Part shown: positions 2,949 through 29,385 of the stretch, piece by piece | How the letters are laid out: each line of letters begins with the position of its first letter | Position numbering within the stretch: the stretch's first letter is position 1 | IMG/VR virus record: IMGVR_UViG_3300021069_000007 | Coordinates: 1 to 33,292 of that record | Strand: one strand, 5' to 3' | Length of the DNA: 33,292 nucleotides | From: a virus | Notes under the pieces: model-generated | Database searches by the model: none | Seen by the model: only the letters and a program-made list of their open reading frames with translations | Told to the model about the DNA's origin: nothing | Position numbers and translations under genes: made by a program

Positions 2949-3099
2949 GATTGGCCTCCAGTTCTTCGATGGCGCACGTTCCAGCGACAAACGCCGCACG
3001 GCTCAACAGCTCGTAGGCCTTCGCCGCCTCATTCCGGTGAATCGCCAAGTTCGCATCCCGAATCAGCGACCGAATCTCCTGCTTCTTGCTTTGCTCCAC
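2929..3099 (-). CDS. Small overlapped hypothetical protein (56 aa, GTG start)
   Basis: A GTG at 3099, with GAGGAG eight bases upstream, opens a 56-aa frame (starts EQSKKQEIRSLIRDANLAI after the initiator). It overlaps the 3' end of the PAPS-reductase-like gene by 71 nt and the next gene by 20 nt. The composition (alternating charged and Ala/Leu residues, with NEAAKAYELLSRAAF) is that of a real helical, TPR-like protein rather than a shadow frame, and the Shine-Dalgarno is good. Function unknown. Confidence 0.55.
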   Translation of the reverse strand: MEQSKKQEIRSLIRDANLAIHRNEAAKAYELLSRAAFVAGTCAIEELEANRGRRCA

Positions 3100-4306
3100 C
3101 TTTTTTTCTCCTCATCAATTCAACGTAGTCCTGATACGCTTTCGACTTTGGCTGGGTGAATCCCAGCCCCTTGCACCAGTGATCATTTCGCAGAATCACC
3201 TTGCACAGCCGGCGCCACGACGGGGCAAGCTTCTTGTTTTCCAGCAGCTTCGGCGCTTCTTCGGGTATTCCTTCGGTGTATCCGCGCTTATTCCACCAAT
3301 CCAGAAACGTCTTGAAGCGAACTTGGTAATGCTCCCGCGTCGGTTTCGGTAAAGACTCCAGCAGCAGGTTACAGAACGACTTCCACGTGTGTCCGGGAGG
3401 GCAAGCTACCGACTGGTAGCCGTTGATGTTTCCAGATTCCTGCACGTACAAAGCTCCAGAATTGGCCCCATTCACTCGTGCCACCACCTTGAACCACGAT
3501 TCAGGCTCGATCAGATGGTAAAGCCATAATCCGCGCCGCTGGTCATCCCCGTAGGGCTGACAGATACGCATTTGATGGATGGTCAGTCCGGCCAAATGCA
3601 TCATGTCATAGAGCCGGTTCCAGCCCTTTCCAGGGAACTTGGCGTGGTATGTCCAAACGTCCTGCGTCTTCCAATCGTAGATCGGGTAGGCGTTGTAAAG
3701 GCTCCCCTCCACCAAGGTCGTAAACCTCTGGCCCTTGTAGCACTCCTTGCTATTCGAGGCGACAGTGCGGAAGCGGTTCAAGCTCTCATCGCATCGAATC
3801 CCGATGAACGCTGCCGTATCCTCCCCCTGCGAATACCACAGGCCGAATAGGACCATGAACTCCTCAAACTCCATGCGAGGGGAAAAAAACGGGAACGCTG
3901 AGTAATCAGAAACTACAGACTTGTGACCCGGTATCGGTCGGACCCAGCCCTCTTTCGCCTCCTCCTCCCAGCAGCACCAGCGCGGCTGGAATTGGCTGAC
4001 GGCGTTACGTAGGAGCAGTGGGAGGCATACCCAGTATTGGTCGGAGTGATCGGCGTAGGCATCCAAGACAGATGAAACGTGGTCCATCGTAGCCTTGTAC
4101 TGCGCTTCCAGGTCAATCACCAGGATTCCGACCTTGCGACCGCGCCGGATGGCCTCATCCATGACCATGTGGATCATCACCGTGGAATCCTTGCCACCGG
4201 AAAAGCTCACGTAGATTCGCTCGAAATGATCGAAAACGTAGGCGATCCGCTCAGTTGCCGCCTCAAACACGTTTTTGGTTTCGGAATACCGCTTCAAGGT
4301 GCTCAT
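3029..4306 (-). CDS. PAPS reductase-like ATP-pyrophosphatase, DUF3440/IbrA type
   Basis: A 425-aa member of the adenine-nucleotide alpha-hydrolase (PP-loop) superfamily. The PP-loop FSGGKDSTVM is at residues 35-44. The extended C-terminal half, with WKTQDVWTYHAKF, MHLAGLTIHQMRICQPYGDDQRRG and a basic tail, matches the DUF3440 group rather than sulfate-assimilation CysH, so a housekeeping PAPS reductase role is unlikely. In Escherichia coli the related IbrA acts with ParB-like IbrB to raise expression of eib genes. Here a ParB-like gene lies two genes upstream in the same overlapping operon (TGATG junction at 4306), which supports a functional pair. The substrate is unknown; nucleotide activation for DNA or RNA modification is a possible but unproven role. 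Confidence 0.85.
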   Translation of the reverse strand: MSTLKRYSETKNVFEAATERIAYVFDHFERIYVSFSGGKDSTVMIHMVMDEAIRRGRKVGILVIDLEAQYKATMDHVSSVLDAYADHSDQYWVCLPLLLRNAVSQFQPRWCCWEEEAKEGWVRPIPGHKSVVSDYSAFPFFSPRMEFEEFMVLFGLWYSQGEDTAAFIGIRCDESLNRFRTVASNSKECYKGQRFTTLVEGSLYNAYPIYDWKTQDVWTYHAKFPGKGWNRLYDMMHLAGLTIHQMRICQPYGDDQRRGLWLYHLIEPESWFKVVARVNGANSGALYVQESGNINGYQSVACPPGHTWKSFCNLLLESLPKPTREHYQVRFKTFLDWWNKRGYTEGIPEEAPKLLENKKLAPSWRRLCKVILRNDHWCKGLGFTQPKSKAYQDYVELMRRKKGGAKQEAGDSVADSGCELGDSPE

Positions 4307-4728
4307 CAGTAGATGTTCGCTTTCTCGTTGACGCCTGCACCGGCCATGTCCACCTTCGGCTCACGCTGGCATACCAGCCATTCGTTCAAGGCCTGCAACG
4401 CCGTCTCATTGGCCTCCGCTTGCTCCTCAGGCGAGAGTTGATTGAATCCACCACGAAATGTGGACGGTATGCCGGTAGCCACACACATTGCCGCCTGTCC
4501 CAGCCACGCAATGCGGTTCATCTTCTCGTTTGACAGGTAGTGCTCGCAGGATCGCGTCCACGTCGTCAGGACCTGCCAGAGAGCCTTGGAGAACCGCTCA
4601 GTGTCCCGCAGGAAGTCGGCGTAACGCTGGTTGCACTCCGCAGCCGTCAGGCCATCTGGAGCAACGGAATTGTAAAACCCAGCCGGGTAGCATTCCCACT
4701 TGTCCCAGGTATGGTAGATGCGAGTCAT
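4306..4728 (-). CDS. Conserved hypothetical protein between ParB-like and IbrA-like genes
   Basis: A 140-aa protein with a Trp/Tyr-rich N-terminus (RIYHTWDKWECYPAGFY), followed by helical segments including CNQRYADFLRD and NRIAWLGQAAMC. I recall similar proteins next to DUF3440 genes in phages and genomic islands, which suggests it is part of the same module. It overlaps the ParB-like gene by ATGA and the IbrA-like gene by TGATG, so the three are likely translated together. No catalytic motif is evident. The terms Ibr-associated and small accessory subunit are inference. Confidence 0.65.
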   Translation of the reverse strand: MTRIYHTWDKWECYPAGFYNSVAPDGLTAAECNQRYADFLRDTERFSKALWQVLTTWTRSCEHYLSNEKMNRIAWLGQAAMCVATGIPSTFRGGFNQLSPEEQAEANETALQALNEWLVCQREPKVDMAGAGVNEKANIY

Positions 4729-5405
4729 TCGCCACCTTCCTCAATCACCAGTTCAGCAGGGGGAGAATCAATGTCCCATGACGCAGAAAACTCGGCGTCG
4801 GTGAACAGTTCCGCCAGCCCGGTAATCTGCGTCAGACGCAACACCTCGTCAGGGTCCATCCCGAGTTGGTCGCCGATCTTTTGATCGCTCCAATTCCGGC
4901 GCTTCAACTCAATAACGATGTCAGACATTGACTCAACTTTGTGCTTCCCACGCGCCCTATTATGACGAATCGTAGACGCCATACGGTCGCCAAGGTCTTC
5001 GCGTGTTCCGTTGATCACCGTCACCGGGAGGTACCCGTGAACACGCTTGCGCACCACTTTGGATTCCTTTCCTACTCGGTTTCGGTGGAATCCATCCACC
5101 ACTTCGTACACGCCGGCCCGTTGCCAAGAGACAATCGGCTGGGTGTATCCGTCCTCGCTGATAGAGCGTTCCAACAGCTTCATTTCAGGCGGTGCCACGC
5201 TATTGGGGTTGTAGTCGTTCGCCTCCACAGATTCACCTTTCACCCAAATAACGCAATCCACCGGCTCATCGGAAAACGGACTAACCCGGTGCAATTCCAC
5301 TTTGATCGCGTTGATCAGTTCAACGCGAGACTCAATCGGCAATCCCTCCACATCAGATAAAACGAGCTTCGCCTGTTCCAGCAAATGACCAGAAAATAAA
5401 TCCAT
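4725..5405 (-). CDS. ParB-like nuclease-domain protein (IbrB type)
   Basis: A 226-aa protein. After about 45 N-terminal residues comes a ParB/sulfiredoxin-like domain: NPNSVAPPEMKLLERSI (66-82), the conserved box VVDGFHRNRVGKE (102-114), and the Arg-rich box MASTIRHNRARGKHK (142-156). It ends with a helix-turn-helix-like segment (about 161-193: LKRRNWSDQKIGDQLGM). Chromosomal ParB binds CTP and DNA for segregation, but no ParA partner is present. Pairing with a DUF3440 protein points to the IbrAB class. GGAG lies seven bases before the ATG. Role in the phage unknown: regulator, DNA-modification component or anti-defence factor are all possible. Confidence 0.8.
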   Translation of the reverse strand: MDLFSGHLLEQAKLVLSDVEGLPIESRVELINAIKVELHRVSPFSDEPVDCVIWVKGESVEANDYNPNSVAPPEMKLLERSISEDGYTQPIVSWQRAGVYEVVDGFHRNRVGKESKVVRKRVHGYLPVTVINGTREDLGDRMASTIRHNRARGKHKVESMSDIVIELKRRNWSDQKIGDQLGMDPDEVLRLTQITGLAELFTDAEFSASWDIDSPPAELVIEEGGE

Positions 5406-9681: not shown

Positions 9682-11985
9682 TTAATATGCGTGGCAAACG
9701 TAGGTGATTACGTCTCCGGTCACTGTCGTGCCGGAAAAGGTAGCCGTTGTCGGAGATTTTGCGGATTGGCGAATCAGATTGGCGGTGGTGTTGTTGCTGA
9801 CAGAGCAAGCCCACCCGGTCGGTGCAGTTGTGCCGATAAACGTGAGCACCGGGGTATACGCGCCTGTGGTCGTGGAGGTAAAGAACCCGGCGATGTTCGT
9901 GCTGCCTGTGCCCATCGTGCCGCTGGAGATCGTCGGGATCGTGCCGCCGCCGATCAATGATCGTATTTTCAGATCCTGATACGTGCCAGCCGTGCCGTTG
10001 TTGATTTCCAGGACGCCAGCGGCGTTGCGATACAGCGCGGTGTCCATACTTGTCCCCAATCCACTGCCAGAAGAGAATCCGATATATGAAGTCGAACTCA
10101 TTCGCAGTAGCGTTCCGTTCACATACGCATCCGGCAGATACACGACAGCACCAATGCCGCCAACGTCGACTATGCCATCGCCTCGGATGTGGAATTTAAC
10201 GGCTGATGTATTGTCTTGGATCGCGAATACATCATTTGTGGATTGCCCAGCCCCCGCTCTGGCGACAAGGGTAGTTACCCCCGTCGTCGCCGTCTGATCG
10301 TAGACGCGGAGGGTTCCAGAGGAGCCGGACTTTTGCACGTCGAGGCGGTAGTTGCCGTCGGTGGTGCCGCCAATGAGGAAGTTGCCAGAGTAAGCAAACC
10401 GGCCAGCTTCCGTATAATTAGGGAAAAAGGCAATCTGCTGCCCTCCGCCAACTGTTCGCAAGTTAAGAGGCATTCCTGAGCTATCAATATAACTCGCGTT
10501 CCCATTGAACGTTGATAGACCTAAATAGGTAGAGTTCCAGGAGGTTCTGATCGCAAATGGGTAGGGCAAAAAAGTAGCAGTGGTGTTAATATCAACCACA
10601 TTAATCGGACTCGCCGTCCCCACCCCCAGCCGCTTGTTGGTCGAGTCCCAAAAGAACGTCGCCGCATCCTGATTCAACACCCCCGTCGCCGACACATACG
10701 GCACCGCGCCGACCGTCGTGAGGCCGGATAGCCCGGAGGCGGCGATGGTCTGCACCCCAGCCGCACCGGTCGTGATCCCGACACCAATCCCTGCAGCCAA
10801 CACGGTGCGCGACGTAATCGCCCGCTTGTCGGTGATGCCGGAGACGTCCCAAGCGGTTGAAGTGTATGTCGCCGTTGCCAAAGGCTGTGATCCCGTCGGG
10901 AACGCGCTGATGCTGGTGGCTGTGGTGCAGCCAGAGCACGTCACCGTAGCCGCGCCGTTGTGGCCCACCGTGAGCACGCCCGCCGCGTCGATGTAGACAT
11001 ACGCCGTAGAAGACGCCACGGCACCCGACAACGTAGCCGTGGCCGCGCTGTATGCTGTTACTACCTCACCGATGCGCCCTTTGCCAGCGGCGATGCCTAG
11101 GAGAGTCGAGCTTGTCCGCGTCACCTGGAGGTCAGTGAGGCCAGAGATGGATGTTGCGCCGCTGCCAGCCCCAGCCGTGATGACTTCCGCGAAATAATTC
11201 GTCCCGTCGCTGTACACCCGCCACCCGGTCGGAGCCGTCGCGCTGCCAGCGGTGCCGGTCAGGTTTGCCGCCGCGCCGTTGATGTTCTGGCCGGATCTTG
11301 CCAGCGTAACCACGCCGGTTCCGTAGTTCAAGACTGTGATGCACTGGCCGGTTGTCGGCTGCGTGCCAGAGGCTACCAGGGTGATCGTGAACGTGCCGCT
11401 GGCCACCGTGATTGTTTTACACGCGGCGAAATCGGCGGCGAGTACCTGATACGTCGTCGTCTGCGCATTGGCGGCGAACAAAGCCACGACGCCCGTTCCG
11501 CCGTTGGCAATGGGGAGGATGCCGGTGATCTGCCTCACGGAAAACATCGTGGTAGGTGTTGGGACTGTCGTGGAGCGCACCTGATACAGCTTCGTCGTGC
11601 TAGGAGTGACTACCCACGTCTCCACCCACGGCGATCCCTTGGCGGGCGAGTAGCGGGCGGAATAGCTGCTGCCCGCCGGCGTGATGGTGCTGTTGGCGTA
11701 GAGCGATATTGTCACGGTCCCAGCCGCCGTCGTAGTGGAACAGTCGGAGCCGGTGACGCCAATGCAGAGCGTGTACTGCCAGCCCGAAAGCGAAGTGGTG
11801 GAGTAGTAAAGCGGCTGCGCGGAGCTTGGCGAGTTGAGCGTCACGACGATGCGCCCGGTGTACGACGATCCGCCCACGCTGTTTGTGAGCGTGTCAGATA
11901 TGGCCGTGGATTGAGCGAACAGCCCAACGCAGGAGGCAAGGCAAAGCGCTATTCTGGCCAAATTGCGGATTGGTTTGTTGATCAC
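9682..11985 (-). CDS. Fibre-like protein with N-terminal signal peptide (767 aa)
   Basis: The start is GTG at 11985 (GTGA overlap with the holin). The N-terminus (INKPIRNLARIALCLASCVGLFAQS) looks like a Sec signal peptide with cleavage near FA-QS (about residue 24). A beta-rich domain with paired Cys follows (about 30-150), then LPIANGGTG (157-165), a motif typical of phage tail fibres, and long Gly/Thr/Ser/Ala-rich repeats including DSTNKRLGVGTASP, also common in fibre shafts. Position after the holin and the overall composition point to a receptor-binding or accessory fibre. The signal peptide is unusual for a virion protein, which is normally assembled in the cytoplasm. It could instead be an exported surface protein of the lysogen. 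No S74 chaperone domain is evident. Confidence 0.65.
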   Translation of the reverse strand: MINKPIRNLARIALCLASCVGLFAQSTAISDTLTNSVGGSSYTGRIVVTLNSPSSAQPLYYSTTSLSGWQYTLCIGVTGSDCSTTTAAGTVTISLYANSTITPAGSSYSARYSPAKGSPWVETWVVTPSTTKLYQVRSTTVPTPTTMFSVRQITGILPIANGGTGVVALFAANAQTTTYQVLAADFAACKTITVASGTFTITLVASGTQPTTGQCITVLNYGTGVVTLARSGQNINGAAANLTGTAGSATAPTGWRVYSDGTNYFAEVITAGAGSGATSISGLTDLQVTRTSSTLLGIAAGKGRIGEVVTAYSAATATLSGAVASSTAYVYIDAAGVLTVGHNGAATVTCSGCTTATSISAFPTGSQPLATATYTSTAWDVSGITDKRAITSRTVLAAGIGVGITTGAAGVQTIAASGLSGLTTVGAVPYVSATGVLNQDAATFFWDSTNKRLGVGTASPINVVDINTTATFLPYPFAIRTSWNSTYLGLSTFNGNASYIDSSGMPLNLRTVGGGQQIAFFPNYTEAGRFAYSGNFLIGGTTDGNYRLDVQKSGSSGTLRVYDQTATTGVTTLVARAGAGQSTNDVFAIQDNTSAVKFHIRGDGIVDVGGIGAVVYLPDAYVNGTLLRMSSTSYIGFSSGSGLGTSMDTALYRNAAGVLEINNGTAGTYQDLKIRSLIGGGTIPTISSGTMGTGSTNIAGFFTSTTTGAYTPVLTFIGTTAPTGWACSVSNNTTANLIRQSAKSPTTATFSGTTVTGDVITYVCHAY

Positions 11986-13996: not shown

Positions 13997-16429
13997 TTAC
14001 GGAGCTCCACAACTAGCCCCTGTGACAATACCGTTATCCACGGTAAGATTTTTGACCGCCTGCCCGGCTCCACAAGTAAGGGTTACGGACGTTCCTGATG
14101 CTCCGCCCTGTGCGACGATACCGCTGCCGATGTGCATGGTGAGCGTCGTGTAAACGTCCACGTAGTTAGCGTAAACTCCCAGCGTTTTAGTCCCGGATGA
14201 GCCGACGTTGTAGGTGCTGCCAGCCGACCATGCAATGTCGCCCGTGATGGAGCCGCCCAGCGTCAACGTGCTGGAGATATTCGCAGTTGAGGCATACAGC
14301 AGCCAGCGCTTCGAGGATGAGCCGAGGGCGTAAGTGCTCCCGGTGGTGGCAATGAGGTCGCTAGAAAACGTGGATGACGCAGTGATTGTGCTGCCGGAAA
14401 AATTGACCACCCCGCTGGCGTCGAGCGCCGTGGTCCATACTTTCGACGGGCGAAGGGAGGTGGAGCCGTAGGCGTAGGCGTTATTTGATTCCGGCAGCCA
14501 GTCGCCGTTCGAGTCAATGCGATGCCGAGCTGTCCGCGTCGTGCTGCCGTTGGAAGTGGTCAGGAATTGCAGGTACTCTCCCTCCGCAGCGCCGACGGTC
14601 CACGTCTGTCCGGAAAACGCCATGATGGCCGCTCGGTTGTACTGCGTGCCGCTGATTTCCGCGCCGAATACCATAAAGCCAAGGCGCTGGTCCGCCGCCG
14701 TCGGCGCGCTGCCCTGGTGAGCGCTGATGCCGCCGCCGCTGTTGGTAGCGACGGCCCCGGTGTATTTGAGTTGCAGGAGGTTGACGGAGGCGGAGTTTTC
14801 GATTTCCAACTTCGCGCTGATGTTGTTGGCCGTGTGGCCGACCCAGACCGATCCCGTGTTGTAATAGATGTCGCTTCCGGTCCTTGTCCACTGTGAGGAA
14901 CCAGATACTTGCCATGTCGCCACGCCAGCGGCGTCGGAAGTAAGGACCTTGCCAGCTCCAGGCGTCCCGAACTCCAATGTCATGGTGGAACCAGTCCGCA
15001 TAGTGAAGTCGGACCCGCTCTCCCAGAACGACGCTCCCGCGGTCGTCACGCCACCAGTGAAAACCCGAAGATAGCGGTTTGAATTGGCACCAATAGAATA
15101 GGTGTTTGCGGCAGTCGGAACAATTGGCCCGGTGGTGAAGTTGAGGCCGTAGACGTTATTCCAGTACAGCGACGAGTTTCCAAGCGATGCGCCAAGATTC
15201 GTAGCCGGATTAAGGCTGACACCCCAATAGGCATTAGCGTCGGCCACACCAGAAATTTTCCGGTAAATCGCCAATACGTTAGACCCGCCGTTGTCTTTCA
15301 GCACCCACGATGAATCGTTCGTCGTGGCTACCGCTTGCGCTTCCCAATAAATTGAGTAGCCGCTTACGCCGCCGACATCCAAGAAACGAAGCCCTCTCGT
15401 ATTCGTCCTGCCTACGTCGTCCACAAACCAATCAACCCGATTAGCTGTGTCCAGGTAGGCGTATGGCCACTCCCAACCATCAACGCCCAGCACCACCACG
15501 CCCATATTGTTTTGGCATCCAACCGCTCCGCTGCCGTTGCAATTTGGCGATGTGATCCACCCAGCAGACTTGCTTTCGATCATGACTCCGACGTTTTGGA
15601 TTGTTTGCGTAACTGGCGAAATCGCGCTGCCGATTCGCACCTCCTGCGCCCAGCAGTAGCCTGTTCCGTACTCGCAGGTAGTGTGCGTCTCTAACGCTCT
15701 CACGTCGGTCCTGTTTCCCCCTGCAATAGTACCTGCGCCGGAGATCCTGCGCATCTCGAATTTACCGGCGCCGCTATCGCTAGTGGGCGTGCCTTGCCAA
15801 ACATCGACTACCATTTCTTTGCCCAGTGCCACTTGCGCGTAGTCGGAGAAGTGTACCTTAGTGTACGGCTCTGATCCGCCGCCAACTTCTAGGTATCCGT
15901 TATCCATTTCGACAAACCCTGTACTGCCGTTGAGTCGCAAAAACTCCGTGACAGTGCCAGCTTTAGCCACCCTAAACGTCATGCCGCTGGTATGAGTTCC
16001 GCTTCCTAGGCTGATGGTATCGACGGAAATATCCCCTGTCGCGGTACCTGCCCCTGCGGTGGTCGTCTGTCGCCAATAAATAGCTGGCGCGTCACCAATG
16101 ACCCCGTTGGTGTTGCGTAGCGTAAACGATTCGTGAAAGCTGGCGGTGGATGTGAGTGATGTCAGCCCCTCGCGGAATGACAGTGCTCCAGCGGCGTCGG
16201 TTTGAAGCGCAAGGCCAGCCACGGTTCCATCGGCGGACGGAAGTGTGAGATTAAACGACGTGGCGATAGAGTCTGGACCTTTTAGACCAACGTAATCGGT
16301 TCCGTTGGTGCGCCTCTCTTGTAGCCTAATTGCGCCCGTAGCAGAGCCTGAGGACTGGTAGACGGTCAATGGCGTCTGCGCCTGCCCGAAGAGTGCGGCA
16401 GCAGCAAGAATATAGATGAGTGCTTTCAT
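13997..16429 (-). CDS. Fibre-like protein with signal peptide and internal repeats (810 aa)
   Basis: Starts at ATG 16429, overlapping the tail-hub stop as TAATG. The N-terminus MKALIYILAAAALFGQAQTP looks like a Sec signal peptide (cleavage near GQA-Q). A Gly/Ser/Thr-rich beta region follows. The C-terminal half has at least five copies of a motif like Y-x-x-G-s-x-s-x-R-w-x-x-v-y: NLGASLGNSSLYWNNVYG (411-428), NTYSIGANSNRYLRVFTG (442-459), NAYAYGSTSLRPSKVW (650-665), STYALGSSSKRWLLYAS (698-714) and STYNVGSSGTKTLGVYAN (738-755). Such repeats occur in tail fibre shafts. Position right after the hub supports a side or tip fibre. The signal peptide is unexpected for a virion component. Confidence 0.65.
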   Translation of the reverse strand: MKALIYILAAAALFGQAQTPLTVYQSSGSATGAIRLQERRTNGTDYVGLKGPDSIATSFNLTLPSADGTVAGLALQTDAAGALSFREGLTSLTSTASFHESFTLRNTNGVIGDAPAIYWRQTTTAGAGTATGDISVDTISLGSGTHTSGMTFRVAKAGTVTEFLRLNGSTGFVEMDNGYLEVGGGSEPYTKVHFSDYAQVALGKEMVVDVWQGTPTSDSGAGKFEMRRISGAGTIAGGNRTDVRALETHTTCEYGTGYCWAQEVRIGSAISPVTQTIQNVGVMIESKSAGWITSPNCNGSGAVGCQNNMGVVVLGVDGWEWPYAYLDTANRVDWFVDDVGRTNTRGLRFLDVGGVSGYSIYWEAQAVATTNDSSWVLKDNGGSNVLAIYRKISGVADANAYWGVSLNPATNLGASLGNSSLYWNNVYGLNFTTGPIVPTAANTYSIGANSNRYLRVFTGGVTTAGASFWESGSDFTMRTGSTMTLEFGTPGAGKVLTSDAAGVATWQVSGSSQWTRTGSDIYYNTGSVWVGHTANNISAKLEIENSASVNLLQLKYTGAVATNSGGGISAHQGSAPTAADQRLGFMVFGAEISGTQYNRAAIMAFSGQTWTVGAAEGEYLQFLTTSNGSTTRTARHRIDSNGDWLPESNNAYAYGSTSLRPSKVWTTALDASGVVNFSGSTITASSTFSSDLIATTGSTYALGSSSKRWLLYASTANISSTLTLGGSITGDIAWSAGSTYNVGSSGTKTLGVYANYVDVYTTLTMHIGSGIVAQGGASGTSVTLTCGAGQAVKNLTVDNGIVTGASCGAP

Positions 16430-22815: not shown

Positions 22816-23183
22816 GTCTGCGCCCCTTCATCTTCGACTACGTACAAGTGCAATTCGCGGCCCCGCTTCTCCGGGTCGTCAATGCCGACGATGCGCTGGT
22901 AGCGGGTGGTTCCGCTGCGGTCAGTGTAACTAATACGGAAATCCTCGGCCAGCGACGGGATAAACGGGATTTCCCAGACGCCAGCCGCCCGCGAGTACCG
23001 CCCGCCTTCCATAGCCGTCTCGGTGTACGAGGTACGCCGCCACATCCCGCGCACGTCCGCCGTTGTCCCGCCCCATGCTGCCTGCCAGTCTCCTCCCGCG
23101 CCTCGCGCCCCGCTATCTGCGGTGATCGTGAGGAGTTGCGTGAATCGGCCCTGGTTGCCCTTGTGGCGCTGGCGGTTGATCAC
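22812..23183 (-). CDS. Head-tail joining protein (head closure, SPP1 gp16-like)
   Basis: A 123-aa beta-rich protein with a GTG start at 23183 (GTGA overlap with the gp6-like gene). It opens INRQRHKGNQGRFTQLLTIT and contains DWQAAWGGTTADVRGMWRR (about 32-50) and YQRIVGIDDPEKRGRELHLY (about 94-113). This matches the head-tail joining family, where the segment before the C-terminus reads close to I-x-x-I-x-D-P-x-x-R-x-R-E-L. It closes the portal vertex after DNA packaging and is the docking surface for the tail. Confidence 0.8.
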   Translation of the reverse strand: MINRQRHKGNQGRFTQLLTITADSGARGAGGDWQAAWGGTTADVRGMWRRTSYTETAMEGGRYSRAAGVWEIPFIPSLAEDFRISYTDRSGTTRYQRIVGIDDPEKRGRELHLYVVEDEGAQT

Positions 23184-23770
23184 ACGATCTCCCGACGCCC
23201 GATTTCAAGTAAGGACAGCATGAACGGGTAGTTCTGCACCGCCGACGCGCCCAACTCGGAGGGTACTTGGTTGGAATCCCACAGCGATATCAGCGCCAGT
23301 ATGCCGCGTTTGAGCCGTGCCGGAATCGCGGGCGGAGTGACCGTAAACTGAATCTCGATAGCCGAAGACGGCCAAAGATCAGCCGTGGGCCATATGCCGT
23401 TGCTGATCGGCGTAAGCACGGACAGCGCTGAATCAAACTGGTAATCCGTACCGGCCACCATTGTTGTATACGTCCCGGCGCTATTCCGGTAGCGAAAAGT
23501 TTCTATGCTTGTAACGTTGTCGCGCAAATTGATCGGATGCCAGTTGCATGGAAAATACGAAAAGTACATGTCCCACTGCTTCGCCACCAGATCGCGCTGC
23601 TGGCAGACTTCGGCAACTTCGCGGGCGGCGGGCGCGTAGGCGTCCAACAGCACGTCGCGGGAGTTGTCGATGTCGGGGATGCCCAGCGCCGCTTTGATCT
23701 CGGATAGCGTGACCGGCTCCGAAAACGCTTGGACGGGCGACGTGATGGTGAGTTTTAAGATTGTGCTCAT
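23180..23770 (-). CDS. Head-tail connector protein (gp6-like)
   Basis: A 196-aa protein with an N-terminal motif PVTLSEIKAALGIPD (about 19-33) and a helix DVLLDAYAPAAREVAEVC (39-56), the classic opening of HK97 gp6-like adaptors; the rest is beta-rich, ending in helix LKRGILALISLWDSN (about 153-167). It would form a ring under the portal. The ATGA overlap with the last glycosyltransferase shows that the decoration cassette is transcribed in the same operon. Slightly longer than HK97 gp6 (about 110 aa), like other members with a C-terminal beta extension. Confidence 0.85.
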   Translation of the reverse strand: MSTILKLTITSPVQAFSEPVTLSEIKAALGIPDIDNSRDVLLDAYAPAAREVAEVCQQRDLVAKQWDMYFSYFPCNWHPINLRDNVTSIETFRYRNSAGTYTTMVAGTDYQFDSALSVLTPISNGIWPTADLWPSSAIEIQFTVTPPAIPARLKRGILALISLWDSNQVPSELGASAVQNYPFMLSLLEIGRREIV

Positions 23771-24621
23771 AGTGCCACCCCAAATAGGTCAAGTGCTGCA
23801 AAGTTTGCCGCGCCGTACTCCGCTACTAAATCCCGTGTGGCCTGTTCCTGCCATGGCTCCGCGTCGATGTCGCAGTGGTGCATCAGATCCGCATACGGAG
23901 CCCACCATTCATCCGGCGTGGGCTTGCGCGTGATGCCCGATAGCGACGGTGCCATGTTGTAGAGGGAGTCGATATCGCGAATGGATTTCTGTGGATACTT
24001 GACGCGCTCGGATGCTTTGTAGAGCGCATGCTTGGCGATAAGGCGGCGCCGGCTGGCAAATTGGAGATGGAGTAGCCCCCCGCCCTGGATGTACGACGAC
24101 TGGCTTGCCCCATACGGGCTGCGCTGGTGATGGTCGTACCCGTTGCGGGCTTCCCAGCAAAGGTGCCCGTGATCGCCAAATGCCACGATGGTCCCGGCGT
24201 CAGTGCCCCAAGGACCTTGCTCGCCCCTGTACTGATTCAGCCCGTCGATGATGTTGCGGAACTTGATTGCGGCGAATCGCTTCGGCCCCAACAGCGCAAC
24301 GTGATCCCGCATAGCCACTACCGTGTCGCCCGCGATGATCTCGTCGGCGTCCACCACCGCGATATGCGTGGCGTCGAGGCAGCGGGCGTATTCCAGCAGG
24401 CGCTGCCGGTGGTGCATTTCACGCCAGATCGTTTCCGATTCGTGGATGACGTGTACCCGCCCCGGATGCTCGTCTGCCACTTGCTCTAGGATCGCTTCAG
24501 ACGCATCGGTACAGGCGTGGAGTAGGAATACGGCGTCATCGCACCAGCGAAGCAAGGCGCGGGCTGTGAGGCCCAAGCACCACGCTTCGTTTCGCACGGG
24601 TTGGATATTAACGAGCCGCAA
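23767..24621 (-). CDS. Glycosyltransferase, GT2-like (GT-A fold)
   Basis: 284 aa. Starts RLVNIQPVRNEAWCLGLTAR (2-21), a nucleotide-sugar-binding opening seen in GT2-type enzymes that begin with V-x-N-E. The metal-binding DxD is in IAVVDADEII (87-96). The C-terminal half carries Trp/His-rich segments (DHGHLCWEARNGYDHHQR) and LLHLQFASRRRLIAKHALY (about 183-201), typical of acceptor-binding regions in this group. It transfers a sugar to an unknown acceptor, probably cytoplasmic. It is the last gene of the six-gene cassette and overlaps the gp6-like connector by ATGA. Confidence 0.8.
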   Translation of the reverse strand: MRLVNIQPVRNEAWCLGLTARALLRWCDDAVFLLHACTDASEAILEQVADEHPGRVHVIHESETIWREMHHRQRLLEYARCLDATHIAVVDADEIIAGDTVVAMRDHVALLGPKRFAAIKFRNIIDGLNQYRGEQGPWGTDAGTIVAFGDHGHLCWEARNGYDHHQRSPYGASQSSYIQGGGLLHLQFASRRRLIAKHALYKASERVKYPQKSIRDIDSLYNMAPSLSGITRKPTPDEWWAPYADLMHHCDIDAEPWQEQATRDLVAEYGAANFAALDLFGVAL

Positions 24622-25198
24622 TTAGGTTCTCCGCTGTGAGATGGAAGTTGACGTACCCGCGCCCGCGTGCCGCCGCTTCAACCTGCGCGGCCATGCCGTC
24701 GTATTCGACGCAGAAGCATTGCGGGAGCATACATTCCGGCTGTTCGAGGAGTTGCATGGCGATCTCCACCGACTGCCCCTCCGCGTCGATGTCGATGAAC
24801 TGGAACCGCCCGGCCCAATCGAGAATGTCGGAAATGGTCATCGACGGGACTATGAGATTCCCAAGGTATTTTGTATTAGGATCCTCTTTCCACAGCGAAT
24901 ACACTGCATGGTCGGAAGTTGAGACAGGGTAGTCCGTTATCTGCATCGTAATCCGCCGCCCGCTTGCAGTCACCGCCGCTTGCAGTAGCGCGATTTGATC
25001 GTTTTGCCCGTACTCTTCCAGCAGCACGCGCATCGGCCCCGGCGACGGCTCCACCAGCACCGCGTCCCAGCCCTTTTCGATCAGTGCCCGCGAGTTGGAA
25101 AGATTCGTTGGCCACCATGCGCCAATGTCCAATAGCCGCCCGTGTTCCGGCGTCCATTGAACGATGTAGCGCTCTTCGTCATTCTGGCTAAACGACAT
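24608..25198 (-). CDS. FkbM-like SAM-dependent methyltransferase
   Basis: 196 aa. Shows SFSQNDEERYIVQW (2-15), motif I LLDIGAWWPTNLSNS (22-36), VLVEPSP (47-53), and the FkbM-like pair VPSMTISDIL (117-126) and FQFIDIDAEGQSVEIAM (132-148). The DxGAxxPxxxSNS and IDxEG elements are hallmarks of FkbM-type O-methyltransferases, which often methylate sugar hydroxyls in glycan clusters. Here it is flanked by glycosyltransferases with 11- and 14-nt overlaps. Its probable role is to O-methylate the sugar that the cassette adds. Confidence 0.85.
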   Translation of the reverse strand: MSFSQNDEERYIVQWTPEHGRLLDIGAWWPTNLSNSRALIEKGWDAVLVEPSPGPMRVLLEEYGQNDQIALLQAAVTASGRRITMQITDYPVSTSDHAVYSLWKEDPNTKYLGNLIVPSMTISDILDWAGRFQFIDIDAEGQSVEIAMQLLEQPECMLPQCFCVEYDGMAAQVEAAARGRGYVNFHLTAENLIAAR

Positions 25199-25988
25199 TG
25201 CGGAATATGCTCCCTGCCAGGCTTTTCGGCCTCATTGGATCTCGTTGGACGAAAAGTTGCGGGTACAGGTCCCAGTCCTGCTGGTGATCGTTGCCGAACG
25301 AGCACGCCTCGCGGTACAACTTCAGGCCGTACCGGTGGCAAAGATTGGTATAGATGGCTTGTTCGACGCGGTGCTCACGGAAGCCGGGATACTCTGGCCC
25401 CATGGTCGACGGCTCGAAGGTCTGGCAGACCGGATCGAGGCAATAATACTGCCACTCGGCTAAAAATGTATCTACGAGCGGAATGCCCTTTTGAAACAGC
25501 ATGAACCGGGCGACGGCGGTGGAGGCTTCGAGGTACTTCTCCTCGTCCTGCCCCATCTGAATCATGCAATCGCGTTTATTAAATTCGCGGTTGCGGAACG
25601 GTACCGGCCCGGCGGTCGCGGCGAAGGCCATAATTCCGCCGATGCGTGCGCACTCGTTGTACAACACGGCGAGGTCGGCAATCGGGTACGTGTCGGCGTC
25701 GATAAACAGAACGATGTCGCCGTCAGCACAGTAGGTGTCGAGCGCGTGACGCAGAATAAACGGCTTCCACGCGAACCAGCCGAAACCGCGGCGTCCGTAG
25801 GGGTTGCCCACGCCGCGGTGCGTGTACAGGTACTGAAACTCAGGCGTTGCGAAAAATGGTTGCTCGGTGAGCCACTTGTCATCATAGACGTGGATCTGAT
25901 CGACGCCAAGGACGGGCGCATCACGCATTACCCGTGCCGTCAATTCGTCGTAGGCCGCGCCCCCAAAGGTGATCAAGTGTTTGGTCAT
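25188..25988 (-). CDS. Glycosyltransferase-like protein (DxD, 266 aa)
   Basis: The start at ATG 25988 overlaps the upstream methyltransferase stop as ATGA; the frame is open to 26114 but that part lies within the upstream gene. 266 aa. Opening strand KHLITFGGAAYDE (3-15); conserved WFAWKPFILRHAL (71-83), found in a group of capsular or lipopolysaccharide glycosyltransferases; DxD in DIVLFIDADTYP (91-102); and a later region with EHRVEQAIYTNLC, typical for ending of the catalytic core. The WKP segment before DxD is like that in sugar transferases acting on surface polysaccharides. Donor and acceptor unknown. Confidence 0.75.
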   Translation of the reverse strand: MTKHLITFGGAAYDELTARVMRDAPVLGVDQIHVYDDKWLTEQPFFATPEFQYLYTHRGVGNPYGRRGFGWFAWKPFILRHALDTYCADGDIVLFIDADTYPIADLAVLYNECARIGGIMAFAATAGPVPFRNREFNKRDCMIQMGQDEEKYLEASTAVARFMLFQKGIPLVDTFLAEWQYYCLDPVCQTFEPSTMGPEYPGFREHRVEQAIYTNLCHRYGLKLYREACSFGNDHQQDWDLYPQLFVQRDPMRPKSLAGSIFRNVV

Positions 25989-26671
25989 TTCGCCCAATCC
26001 GGCAGGCCGTAGTTTTCGGCCCAGTTGCGTGTGCCCTCCTGAATATCGGGCGGCGGCGTGAAGTCTCCGCGCCATGCAATGAAAATCATGTGGACGCTGG
26101 GATAGACGCGCCATTGCAGGCCCTGATCGGCCAGATACTTTCCGGCGTCCCAGATATCAGGCCCGCGAAAGTCGTGAAGCAGGATCACGCCGCGCTCGTT
26201 CAACCTGGCGAAACACCCAATGGCGTCATTGAGTGGGTTTACATCGCAGTGGTCGCCGTCGATCACACAGCCGTCGAAGGTGCGCCCGCCCGCGCCGTCC
26301 CATACCTTCAGGTACTCGTCAGACCGGCCCGCCCATGGCATCACCCGCCGCGCGTGGTCGATGGTGTTGTCGTAGAAGCGCTGGTACCACTCGGGCAGCG
26401 AGAACATCGGTTCGATGGATATGACGAACTCAGCCCATTTTGAGATGAAGTAGGTACACCAGCCGGTATGCGCCCCGATTTCCAGCCACCGCCCGCCAAA
26501 CTGCTTGACGATGGACTCCAACAGCGCGATCTCGCCTTTTGTCCAGAATCCGCAGCCGTCGCGGTACAGGCCAAATACTGGATCGCCTTCTGGTTTATCC
26601 TGCCAGTCGGAGCCGATCTCTACGCCGATTGAGTACGGCATCGTGCGAAACAAAACGTGGTCGAAACTCAT
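25985..26671 (-). CDS. SAM-dependent methyltransferase (class I, methyltransf_24-like)
   Basis: 228 aa. SAM-binding motif I RWLEIGAHTGWCTYFIS (61-77), acidic end of strand 2 VISIEP (83-88), then FDGCVIDGDHCDVNPLNDAI (132-151) and ILLHDF (163-168). The IDGDH ... HD pattern is typical of the methyltransf_24 group, which includes sugar and macrolide O-methyltransferases. ATGA overlaps on both sides bind it to two glycosyltransferase-like genes. The likely substrate is a sugar or glycan made by the neighbours. Confidence 0.85.
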   Translation of the reverse strand: MSFDHVLFRTMPYSIGVEIGSDWQDKPEGDPVFGLYRDGCGFWTKGEIALLESIVKQFGGRWLEIGAHTGWCTYFISKWAEFVISIEPMFSLPEWYQRFYDNTIDHARRVMPWAGRSDEYLKVWDGAGGRTFDGCVIDGDHCDVNPLNDAIGCFARLNERGVILLHDFRGPDIWDAGKYLADQGLQWRVYPSVHMIFIAWRGDFTPPPDIQEGTRNWAENYGLPDWAK

Positions 26672-27369
26672 GCAGGATAGCTCTCCGCAAATCCGCTTGC
26701 ACGGTGACGGTTAAACAGCGCCTTGGATTCGTCCCAGTGCTTCATGGTATTAACCTTGAGCAAGTACTCCGGGCAGCGCTGCGTCTCGCGTGACCAGTGG
26801 CGATGCACATGCGTTAGATCTTTTCGCTGCCATAGGCACCCCTGCGCCCGCGCCGCCATTTGCAGGTGTTCATCGACGTGCATGTGGAAGTAGTCGGGGT
26901 GCATCGGCCCAGCACCTTTATTGGCCTTTTCGCACCAGTCGCGCCCCATCCAAGGGCTTCCGCAGATGCGCTCAATGCCGCCCCAGCCTTCGCCGATGGG
27001 CTGCATGATGCCGTAGGTCCCAAACAGGTTTTCCGCGTCTCCGTGGTCGAGGATGTCGCACTTTCCGAAGTAGCGAGAGCACTCTCGCGCGATCTGGTCC
27101 GGGTGCTTCGCGGTGTCGGGGAAAACGTCGTCGCCGCCCGTCACCACCCAGTCGCAGGTCAAATCTAAGGCCAGCACGGTTTGAGCGAGGCAGTTGACCG
27201 CTTGCGCGTAACCAGGGTACGGCCCGTAAGTGATGAAGTCTGCCTCTACCGGCTGCGCCTCGGTGTCACGCCAGGCGGCCACCTTATAGCCCTGATTGCG
27301 CCATGCGTTGATGCAGTCTTGCGCCTCACGCGCTGGCTTGGCGCTTGGGATTACGAACCAGACGGCCAT
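26668..27369 (-). CDS. Glycosyltransferase-like protein (233 aa)
   Basis: 233 aa. Starts VWFVIPSAKPAREAQDCIN (3-21), a first strand and loop like those of GT-A enzymes, then VVTGGDDVFPD (75-85), where GDD takes the place of DxD in strand 4. Later segments: GGIERICGSPWMGRDWC and YFHMHVDEHLQMAARAQG (about 161-178), similar in placement to acceptor or catalytic-base regions. The C-terminal part is Arg/His-rich. I rate the glycosyltransferase call as likely but less sure than for the others. It overlaps the first glycosyltransferase by 19 nt and the methyltransferase by ATGA. Confidence 0.65.
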   Translation of the reverse strand: MAVWFVIPSAKPAREAQDCINAWRNQGYKVAAWRDTEAQPVEADFITYGPYPGYAQAVNCLAQTVLALDLTCDWVVTGGDDVFPDTAKHPDQIARECSRYFGKCDILDHGDAENLFGTYGIMQPIGEGWGGIERICGSPWMGRDWCEKANKGAGPMHPDYFHMHVDEHLQMAARAQGCLWQRKDLTHVHRHWSRETQRCPEYLLKVNTMKHWDESKALFNRHRASGFAESYPA

Positions 27370-28127
27370 TGATACCCCTTCGGAAGTTCAGACATCGGGC
27401 ATTCAGTACGAAGTATCCGCTGCGCGGTGTGCTGATCATGAACAGATGCCACCATAAGACCGTATCCGTTGACGTGTACCTTGTTTTTGCACTGCTGGAG
27501 GAATATCGAATCTTCGCCCTCATGCACTCCTGGAGCAAAGCGCGAACGCATCCAATAATCACGGCGGTACAGTAGGCCGGAGCCTATTCCATACATCGGA
27601 TCGGCGTCGATCTTGTACGCCTTCGAGTCGCTGGCAAAGTGGCACCCAAGCGGAGCACACATTACGGCTTGCCCGATGGCTTGCAGTTGCTTTTCGATGC
27701 GTTCCGGCGAGTACCAGTCGTCATCGTCCCAGTGGGCGATAAACTCCCCGGTGGCAAGCTGGCACGCCAGATTCCGTAGCATTCCCAGCTTCATTCCATG
27801 CCCGGCGCGGGTGTAGATGATGCGCGGATCGGTCGGGATGAGGTCTTTGATTGATTCGCCGCCGTTGTCCAAAACGACAAGTTGCAGCGGTTGATAGGTT
27901 TGCGCGTTCCAGCACTCCAGCGCTCGCGGAATCCACTTGCGGCGGTCCCGCGTCGGCATGATGCAGGAGACTAGCCCGACGTTCGTTACCGGGGCCGTGA
28001 AGGTGGCCTCTTGCGCTTTGCCGTTGCGTAGTAGTTGCCGCGCTACGTGCGGATGGGCAGAGAAAATTTGGCCCTCCTCGTATTTTTCCCGGCCAAGTGC
28101 GAGTGTTGTGACGGCAATGAGTTCCAT
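27351..28127 (-). CDS. GT2 glycosyltransferase with N-terminal phage head-associated domain
   Basis: 258 aa from ATG 28127; the frame continues upstream but only through the terminator and the capsid gene's 3' end. Residues 1-42 (ELIAVTTLALGREKYEEGQ, then HVARQLLRNGKAQEA) match the pattern of small phage proteins often encoded beside head genes. From about residue 50 follows a classical GT2 fold: VSCIMPTRDRRKWIPRAL (53-70), LQLVVLDNGG (81-90) and the DxD-type WDDDDWYSPERI (133-144). A later acidic segment GVHEGEDSIFLQQC fits the catalytic E-D. No ribosome-binding site is seen; the start abuts the terminator hairpin, so expression may be kept low. It is the first gene of the cassette. Confidence 0.85.
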   Translation of the reverse strand: MELIAVTTLALGREKYEEGQIFSAHPHVARQLLRNGKAQEATFTAPVTNVGLVSCIMPTRDRRKWIPRALECWNAQTYQPLQLVVLDNGGESIKDLIPTDPRIIYTRAGHGMKLGMLRNLACQLATGEFIAHWDDDDWYSPERIEKQLQAIGQAVMCAPLGCHFASDSKAYKIDADPMYGIGSGLLYRRDYWMRSRFAPGVHEGEDSIFLQQCKNKVHVNGYGLMVASVHDQHTAQRILRTECPMSELPKGYQWPSGS

Positions 28128-28138
28128 GTCAAAAATAT

Positions 28139-28157
28139 GGGGCGGAGGAGCCGCCCC
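28139..28157 (-). terminator. Intrinsic terminator after major capsid gene
   Basis: On the minus strand GGGGCGG-CTCCT-CCGCCCC forms a perfect 7-bp GC stem with a five-base loop, followed at once by ATATTTTTG. It starts 22 bases after the capsid stop and ends 11 bases before the glycosyltransferase ATG. It should release most transcripts after capsid, letting only read-through reach the decoration, connector and tail genes. Confidence 0.8.
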
Positions 28158-28179: not shown

Positions 28180-29385
28180 CTACGATTGAGCGGGCGAATT
28201 GAGGAACGTGCCGTAGATGAAGCTTCCGGGCCGGTAGACGGCCAGCAAACCGCGAGCTTCAAACCGGATCGTCACCATATTCTTGGTGAAGTTGTTGCCT
28301 TCCTCGGTCGAGATGGCGACTTCCAGTTCCATGCGGTTTCGGAACTCGATGGCCGGGGAAATACCCGAACCAACCACAAATTTCCCGGTGGCAATTTGCG
28401 TCGTCGGCACCGGAGTGAGGCCCCACACGTCGCGCGGACCAGCGCCCATCATAGGACCGCCCAACAAATACATCTTGTTGGAGTCTTTCAACCGCGTCAT
28501 CCGGTACCAGTCGGTCGGATGGCAGACGAAGAACGTAGCGGGGAACTCGTCGGCGGCGGCGACCTGCTGCGCGGCGGCGTTGACCTGATCGAACAGCGTG
28601 TATCCGGTGGTGGCCGACAAAAGCGCCGTGTCGTAGGCCGTCGCCTGCGTAATCAGCCCGTCCAAATCCTCGCCCGTGTTGGAGCCGTTGAGAATCTGGT
28701 TATCCATTTCCGCATTGACCTTGTAGCTGCCCAACGATTCCAGAATGCCCTGGAGTTCGTTGTAGTCTTCGAGCACCTGGCGGGAGCAGTCGAAGTACGT
28801 GGCGATGGTCTTGACCCGCTCGGTGATGATCGTCGGATCGAAGATGTTCAGCGGCTTCGAGCTACGTTCCGCGACCGGCGAGGCCTTCGTGCCGACGTTG
28901 GAGTATTTCGGGAAGCTGTACTGCCCTACGTTGATCGAGCGAGACGGGATCACGTCACGCATGCGAATCTGCTTCCGCGGCTCCGTGACGTATCCGCCGG
29001 TTTCAATGGGCATGACGCCAGCGGTGGGAAAACCGACCGTACTGGAGTCGATGTTTTTCTGGATCATCTGGAGGCCAGCGCGGCTTTCCAGAATATCGGA
29101 AACGGCCTTTCCTTCGAGCTTGAACTTGGTTGCGCCCTTGCCGTTCTTCATGATCCGCGCAACTTCTTCGTTTTCGCGCAACTGCTCGGCAAGGCCCTTG
29201 ACCTTCGTGGTGCTTCCGTAGGCTCCCTGTTTGGCGATGAAGCCGTCGAGTTCGTTGCGGAGTTGCAAGTTCGCGGCCTTGGTTTCGGCGAGCGTGGTTC
29301 CAAGATTCTTGACTTCTTCGGCCATTTTGGTCTGGCTTGCCATCACCGCGCCGGTGAGAGCTTCGATCTGTTGAGTGAGTTCCAT
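28180..29385 (-). CDS. Major capsid protein (HK97 fold)
   Basis: 401 aa. Residues 1-105 are a charged, coiled-coil scaffold-like delta domain (ELTQQIEALTGAVMASQTK, LAETKAANLQLRNELDG), normally removed by the prohead protease encoded next door. The mature part begins around 110-125 with the GFPTAGVMPIETGGYV region (about 118-133), followed by PRKQIRMRDVIPSRSINVG. The later FVCHPTDWYRMTRLKDSN and ITTEGNNF-like C-terminal region (STEEGNNFTKNMVTIRFEAR, about 363-382) fit HK97-family capsids. AAGGA lies six bases before the ATG. A terminator follows. Confidence 0.95.
   Translation of the reverse strand: MELTQQIEALTGAVMASQTKMAEEVKNLGTTLAETKAANLQLRNELDGFIAKQGAYGSTTKVKGLAEQLRENEEVARIMKNGKGATKFKLEGKAVSDILESRAGLQMIQKNIDSSTVGFPTAGVMPIETGGYVTEPRKQIRMRDVIPSRSINVGQYSFPKYSNVGTKASPVAERSSKPLNIFDPTIITERVKTIATYFDCSRQVLEDYNELQGILESLGSYKVNAEMDNQILNGSNTGEDLDGLITQATAYDTALLSATTGYTLFDQVNAAAQQVAAADEFPATFFVCHPTDWYRMTRLKDSNKMYLLGGPMMGAGPRDVWGLTPVPTTQIATGKFVVGSGISPAIEFRNRMELEVAISTEEGNNFTKNMVTIRFEARGLLAVYRPGSFIYGTFLNSPAQS

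Follow-up and report, generated by a model that had tools for sequence, protein, structure and literature searches.

The 33.3-kb virus record IMGVR_UViG_3300021069_000007 (33,292 nucleotides, referred to below as the window) comes from an uncultured phage whose genes lie on the minus strand and are transcribed in the order TerS, TerL, portal, prohead protease, HK97-type capsid, six cassette genes, gp6-like connector, and further head-tail and tail genes. The subject of this analysis is the cassette, a set of six overlapping open reading frames (ORFs; 28127-23767, minus strand) for predicted glycosyltransferases and methyltransferases, flanked by the major capsid gene and the gp6-like connector gene, an interval that we refer to as the slot. 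Successive ORFs overlap by 19, 4, 4, 11, and 14 nt, and the last of them overlaps the connector gene by 4 nt. The upstream neighbor encodes a major capsid protein of the HK97 fold (28180..29385, minus strand; PF05065, E 4e-29; TIGR01554 above the cut-off), and the downstream neighbor a gp6-like head-tail connector (23180..23770, minus strand; PF05135 at E 7e-4, just below the cut-off, and phrog_442 at E 2e-8). The ORF coordinates, together with these family matches, bear out the first-pass annotation of the window in its description of six genes that overlap by 4-19 nt between capsid and connector.

The first gene, NT-GT4 (27351..28127), encodes a family 2 glycosyltransferase (PF00535, E 5e-17; best named matches WcaA and TuaG), and the last, GT1 (23767..24621), one of the family 2 type (PF13704, E 3e-6); both lie, like the rest of the cassette, on the minus strand, both score above the respective cut-offs with conserved acidic motifs of the D-x-D type, and by these curated family scores both are clear predicted glycosyltransferases. 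Likewise above the cut-offs are the two predicted S-adenosylmethionine (SAM) methyltransferases, one of the Methyltransf_24 type (25985..26671; PF13578, E 6e-8) and one of the FkbM family (24608..25198; TIGR01444, 41.3 bits against a cut-off of 37.7), the profile of the latter also matching FkbM genes from the same slot in other phages. The two remaining proteins, GT2 and GT3, are probable GT-A glycosyltransferases. GT2 (25188..25988) itself has no family match, two of its orthologues match PF13704 below the cut-off (E ~5e-4), and its D-x-D motif is invariant among homologues down to 37% identity. GT3 (26668..27369) drew no match in sequence family searches and contains a conserved GGDDV motif; the Foldseek matches of its low-confidence model in the PDB are mostly GT-A enzymes (best E 6e-3). 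The model of GT2 was discarded (predicted local distance difference test score, pLDDT, 44), its Foldseek matches being meaningless. Thus, structure prediction, suggested earlier as a check for GT-A folds, speaks weakly for GT3 and is unusable for GT2, and the initial count of four glycosyltransferases and two methyltransferases stands for both methyltransferases and for two of the transferases, with GT2 and GT3 assigned less securely. PDB sequence searches with GT2, FkbM, Methyltransf_24, and MptE-like queries produced nothing useful. Distant homologues of GT1 and GT2 are present in the cyanophages P-SSM2 and P-TIM68; in larger phages, those of GT2 adjoin other sugar genes, in locus L106 a GDP-mannose 4,6-dehydratase, and these neighbors hint at a GDP-sugar as the GT2 donor without proving it. 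No membrane-like segment is present in any of the six proteins (top 19-residue hydropathy 1.37).

Five of the genes, NT-GT4, GT3, GT2, FkbM, and GT1, occur in the same order and at the same capsid-connector position in five relatives from IMG/VR scans that took the best 80 loci each (L002, L003, L004, which is the same as L016, L103, and L104), which together with the window make six phages. The block thus sits in one and the same place in all five relatives, not at varying places in the manner of a random moron, and the original view, that the structural operon contains at a conserved position a cassette for building and methylating a glycan, is supported. The five shared enzymes show 69-97% pairwise protein identity across the six phages (88-94% for GT1) and are under strong purifying selection, with a mean ratio of nonsynonymous to synonymous substitution rates (dN/dS) of 0.06-0.13 per enzyme; the connector, portal, TerL, and tail genes have values in the same range. 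Retention of the five genes to this degree exceeds what chance would leave. The Methyltransf_24 gene belongs to the window only and was not found in any of the five relatives among the matches listed, and in L003 the GT2 and FkbM genes are separated by an unrelated ORF of 145 aa; the cassette, as read from these gene sets, consists of a constant core and one optional, presumably decorating, methyltransferase. An INPHARED DNA search gave no near match, and two scans of genome contigs detected no relative. In L104, a partial copy of portal, TerL, and TerS in reverse orientation opens the contig (L104:1-2392), ahead of the forward portal gene; it is probably an assembly artefact.

Two features of the locus are new here, a post-capsid-like domain fused to the first transferase and a hairpin between capsid and cassette. 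The domain comprises the N-terminal ~45 residues of NT-GT4 (27993-28127, minus strand) and resembles a small post-capsid protein that stands alone in other phages (phrog_2616, E 0.002; hhalign against the stand-alone proteins, prob 76.7, E 2e-5). In L103, the capsid protein has been replaced (40% identity to that of the window, 40-47% to those of the others in the set), and the capsid gene and the N-terminal domain have been swapped together (L103:5309-7318), the breakpoint apparently falling within the NT-GT4 gene, where its two domains meet. The L103 domain shows 21-38% identity to its counterparts and the transferase part 79-88%; neither the transferase part nor its neighbors were replaced, and the catalytic parts of the cassette have retained 77-90% identity despite the capsid replacement. 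When cassette and capsid were tested for co-divergence, the N-terminal domain alone tracked the capsid, and did so through L103 only (rho 0.73, p 0.049 with L103; rho 0.11 without it); because the correlation vanishes without this phage, the co-replacement of domain and capsid is counted as one event.

The hairpin, detected by a pattern scan, is GC-rich, is followed by a U tract, and lies between the capsid stop and the NT-GT4 start in 6/6 cassette phages (28139..28157, minus strand, in the window; z -2.5 against shuffles). This terminator-like element looks like a candidate attenuator that would permit much capsid and little enzyme, and cassette expression is probably attenuated and not tied to the capsid level. 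The notion that the cassette is locked to capsid production is not supported as it stands, since the hairpin separates the two in every one of these phages. Comparable hairpins with a U tract lie directly 3' of the capsid gene in L006, L008, L010, L011, L013, L015, and Pseudomonas phage D3 (L183). The HK97-type phages with such a hairpin are numerous and look unrelated, as though it were common to attenuate transcription at this point.

The cassette is not a one-off: the slot is a recurrent site of glycan genes, with differing gene sets, and their position is not random. Distant capsid relatives (~28-35% identity), selected by capsid only, often hold other glycan genes there, including FkbM, GT8-like, GT9-like, and MptE-like genes, other methyltransferases, and a hexapeptide acyltransferase; most of the other capsid relatives have less than 600 bp in the slot. 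Among 89 loci chosen by capsid, which form 59 capsid clusters at 90% identity with the slot resolved in 53, 12 clusters contain, within the slot, a homologue of one of these glycan families and 40 of the 41 matches fall inside it, a count that is partly circular because the models were built from slot genes. A less circular test, with the curated families PF05050, PF00535, PF01075, PF13704, and TIGR01444 across 50 phage records, places the above-cut-off matches in the slot and leaves three clear outsiders, all below the cut-off. The reverse test, in which the MptE/sialyltransferase-like (MptE-like) profile served as bait and the best 80 loci were considered, found 78 adjoining a capsid gene, a connector gene, or both: 56 lie between the two, 14 have a capsid gene 279-1034 bp upstream on a contig that ends before any connector, and 8 have a downstream connector and no recognised capsid gene, the last 2 being unresolved. 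The cultured Tetraselmis viridis virus S20 carries GT-D, MptE-like, Methyltransf_23, and family-2-type genes after its capsid gene. A relative of the MptE/sialyltransferase-like family in phage PAJU2 (ORF010, L184:4854-5423), annotated "structural protein," follows the head-tail adaptor, so that this family is found elsewhere in the head-tail module too. Phage DSL-LC06 (L097) has a small genome (29.8 kb) in which a single 9-kb stretch is rich in genes annotated for sugar functions: heptosyltransferase, FkbM, glycosyltransferases, KpsC-like, and sialyltransferase.

With respect to known systems, the closest analogy is offered by the cluster O mycobacteriophages, in which an O-methyltransferase and three glycosyltransferase-type genes (Corndog gp35-gp38) are located between portal and protease (PMC4351075) and, according to a passage of PMC11600133 citing Freeman 2023, modify capsid and tail-tube proteins. 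As in the window, a methyltransferase and several glycosyltransferase genes are contiguous within the structural operon, and this analogous arrangement supports virion-protein glycosylation as a reading of our cassette; the window differs in the position of the block, between capsid and connector, and in having FkbM and the fused N-terminal domain. No mycobacteriophage match was found at E 1e-3 in tblastn searches with the six window proteins against a collection from which the two Corndog accessions tried are absent. Che8-type (cluster F1) phages, for which a passage of PMC11256854 citing Freeman 2023 reports capsid glycans, likewise encode their own glycosyltransferases, with the difference that Maravista, a related F1 phage, has its transferase genes close to the far end of the genome, outside the structural operon. 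Mycobacteriophage virion glycans are also reported, in passages of PMC11256854 and PMC11600133, to alter antibody recognition. In the cultured phage D3, the order is capsid gene, a small protein gene, orf7 (phrog_4603, named alpha-2,3-sialyltransferase), and connector, with a hairpin 3' of the capsid gene; unlike the window, D3 has in the slot a single gene, of another family, and a methyltransferase (orf13) further downstream. The main text of the 2025 D3 capsid structure paper makes no mention of glycans. The MptE/Maf-like loci of the same slot differ from the window, where phrog_4603 matched none of the six cassette genes and cross-comparison turned up nothing related to it. Outside phages, the flagellin glycosylation islands of Enterobacteriaceae combine variable transferases and FkbM at a fixed site by the flagellin gene (PMC4875605) and thus share with the window the placement of such enzymes next to a gene whose product is a structural protein that assembles itself; they are cellular, act on flagellin, and often include sugar-biosynthesis genes, none of which was identified in those window genes that were scanned. 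By analogy, the cassette probably works like these systems, from which it differs in place, enzyme families, and fusion.

We consider it probable that the cassette is a virion-glycosylation module, the soluble enzymes of which put an O-methylated glycan on a virion protein. The cassette would be expressed along with the structural genes, with the hairpin thinning transcription beyond the capsid gene and read-through supplying the soluble glycosyltransferases and methyltransferases in catalytic amounts. Host nucleotide sugars would supply the glycan, as we infer from the failure to recognise sugar-nucleotide genes in the cassette or among the other window genes scanned. Acting in turn in the cytoplasm, a setting that the lack of membrane-like segments fits, the transferases could then build a short glycan on a virion protein; FkbM would methylate this glycan in all relatives, and Methyltransf_24 would add an extra step in the window phage. 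The N-terminal domain of NT-GT4 may dock the first transferase on the head. The finished glycan might shield the particle or aid adsorption.

Several observations weigh against this proposal: GT2 and GT3 are only probable members of the enzyme set, the scan of window genes recognised none for sugar nucleotides, the catalytic cassette parts do not follow capsid divergence, and several phages with long slot inserts have no glycan genes there. Long slot inserts of other kinds comprise HNH genes (L014, L041) and collagen-like and repeat-rich proteins (L042, L034, L039, L067). As the catalytic parts do not track the capsid, the acceptor may be a protein other than the capsid, and a better conserved one, such as that of the tail tube (83-96% identity), is as plausible a candidate. 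Hence, of the first-pass annotation's suggestion of a glycan on capsid or tail, the virion as target gains from the cluster O precedent, and the capsid, replaced in L103 next to a largely unchanged cassette, is unproven. Two long repetitive fibre-like proteins are encoded 3' of the tail genes (window 9682-11985 and 13997-16429), and either is a conceivable alternative acceptor. Elsewhere in the window (3029-5405), a DUF3440/PAPS-reductase (DndC-like) gene adjoins a ParB_N-like gene, forming an IbrA/IbrB-like pair.

These inserts of other kinds (HNH, collagen-like, repeat-rich), along with the coming and going of Methyltransf_24 and of the extra ORF in L003, might be taken to mean that the slot is merely a tolerant insertion site and the cassette cargo with no virion-related role. 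We regard this as improbable in view of the strong purifying selection that acts on each of the five enzymes held in common, the near confinement of the glycan families to the slot, and the overlapping frames and domain fusion. Somewhat better placed, if still unlikely, is the possibility that the enzymes alter lipopolysaccharide, capsule, or S-layer of the host late in infection and so keep released phage from re-adsorbing or block superinfection; transferases and methyltransferases of related families work on surface polysaccharides, as the WcaA and TuaG matches of NT-GT4 recall, and the cyanophage homologues of GT1 and GT2 point the same way. However, the six genes include neither membrane segments nor a lipid-carrier or flippase-type gene, a difference from serotype-conversion (Gtr-type) clusters with their flippase and membrane-bound transferases, and the cassette is fixed in the structural operon, not in an accessory region, with one transferase, NT-GT4, bearing a structural-type domain. 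Phage glycosyltransferases that act on modified bases are known, and a TET-associated glycosyltransferase model weakly matches one slot gene of L092 (E 0.02); nevertheless, glycosylation of phage DNA against restriction is very improbable here, no base-hypermodification gene having been recognised among the window genes scanned and the combination of FkbM with several transferases in one set being unlike known DNA-glycosylation systems.

Phage particles are usually regarded as bare protein, and glycosylated virions have been shown in few phages. More speculatively than in the case of the window cassette as a virion-glycosylation module, we entertain the possibility, which we rate below even chances, that many HK97-type phages, D3 among them, use the capsid-connector junction as a locus dedicated to virion glycosylation, in which enzyme sets are exchangeable and a small post-capsid domain can bring the first transferase to its place on the head, recombining together with the capsid gene. 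If this is true, a fixed slot with varying sets of sugar enzymes would amount to a rule by which glycosylated phage particles can be predicted, and D3 could provide a bench system for that rule.

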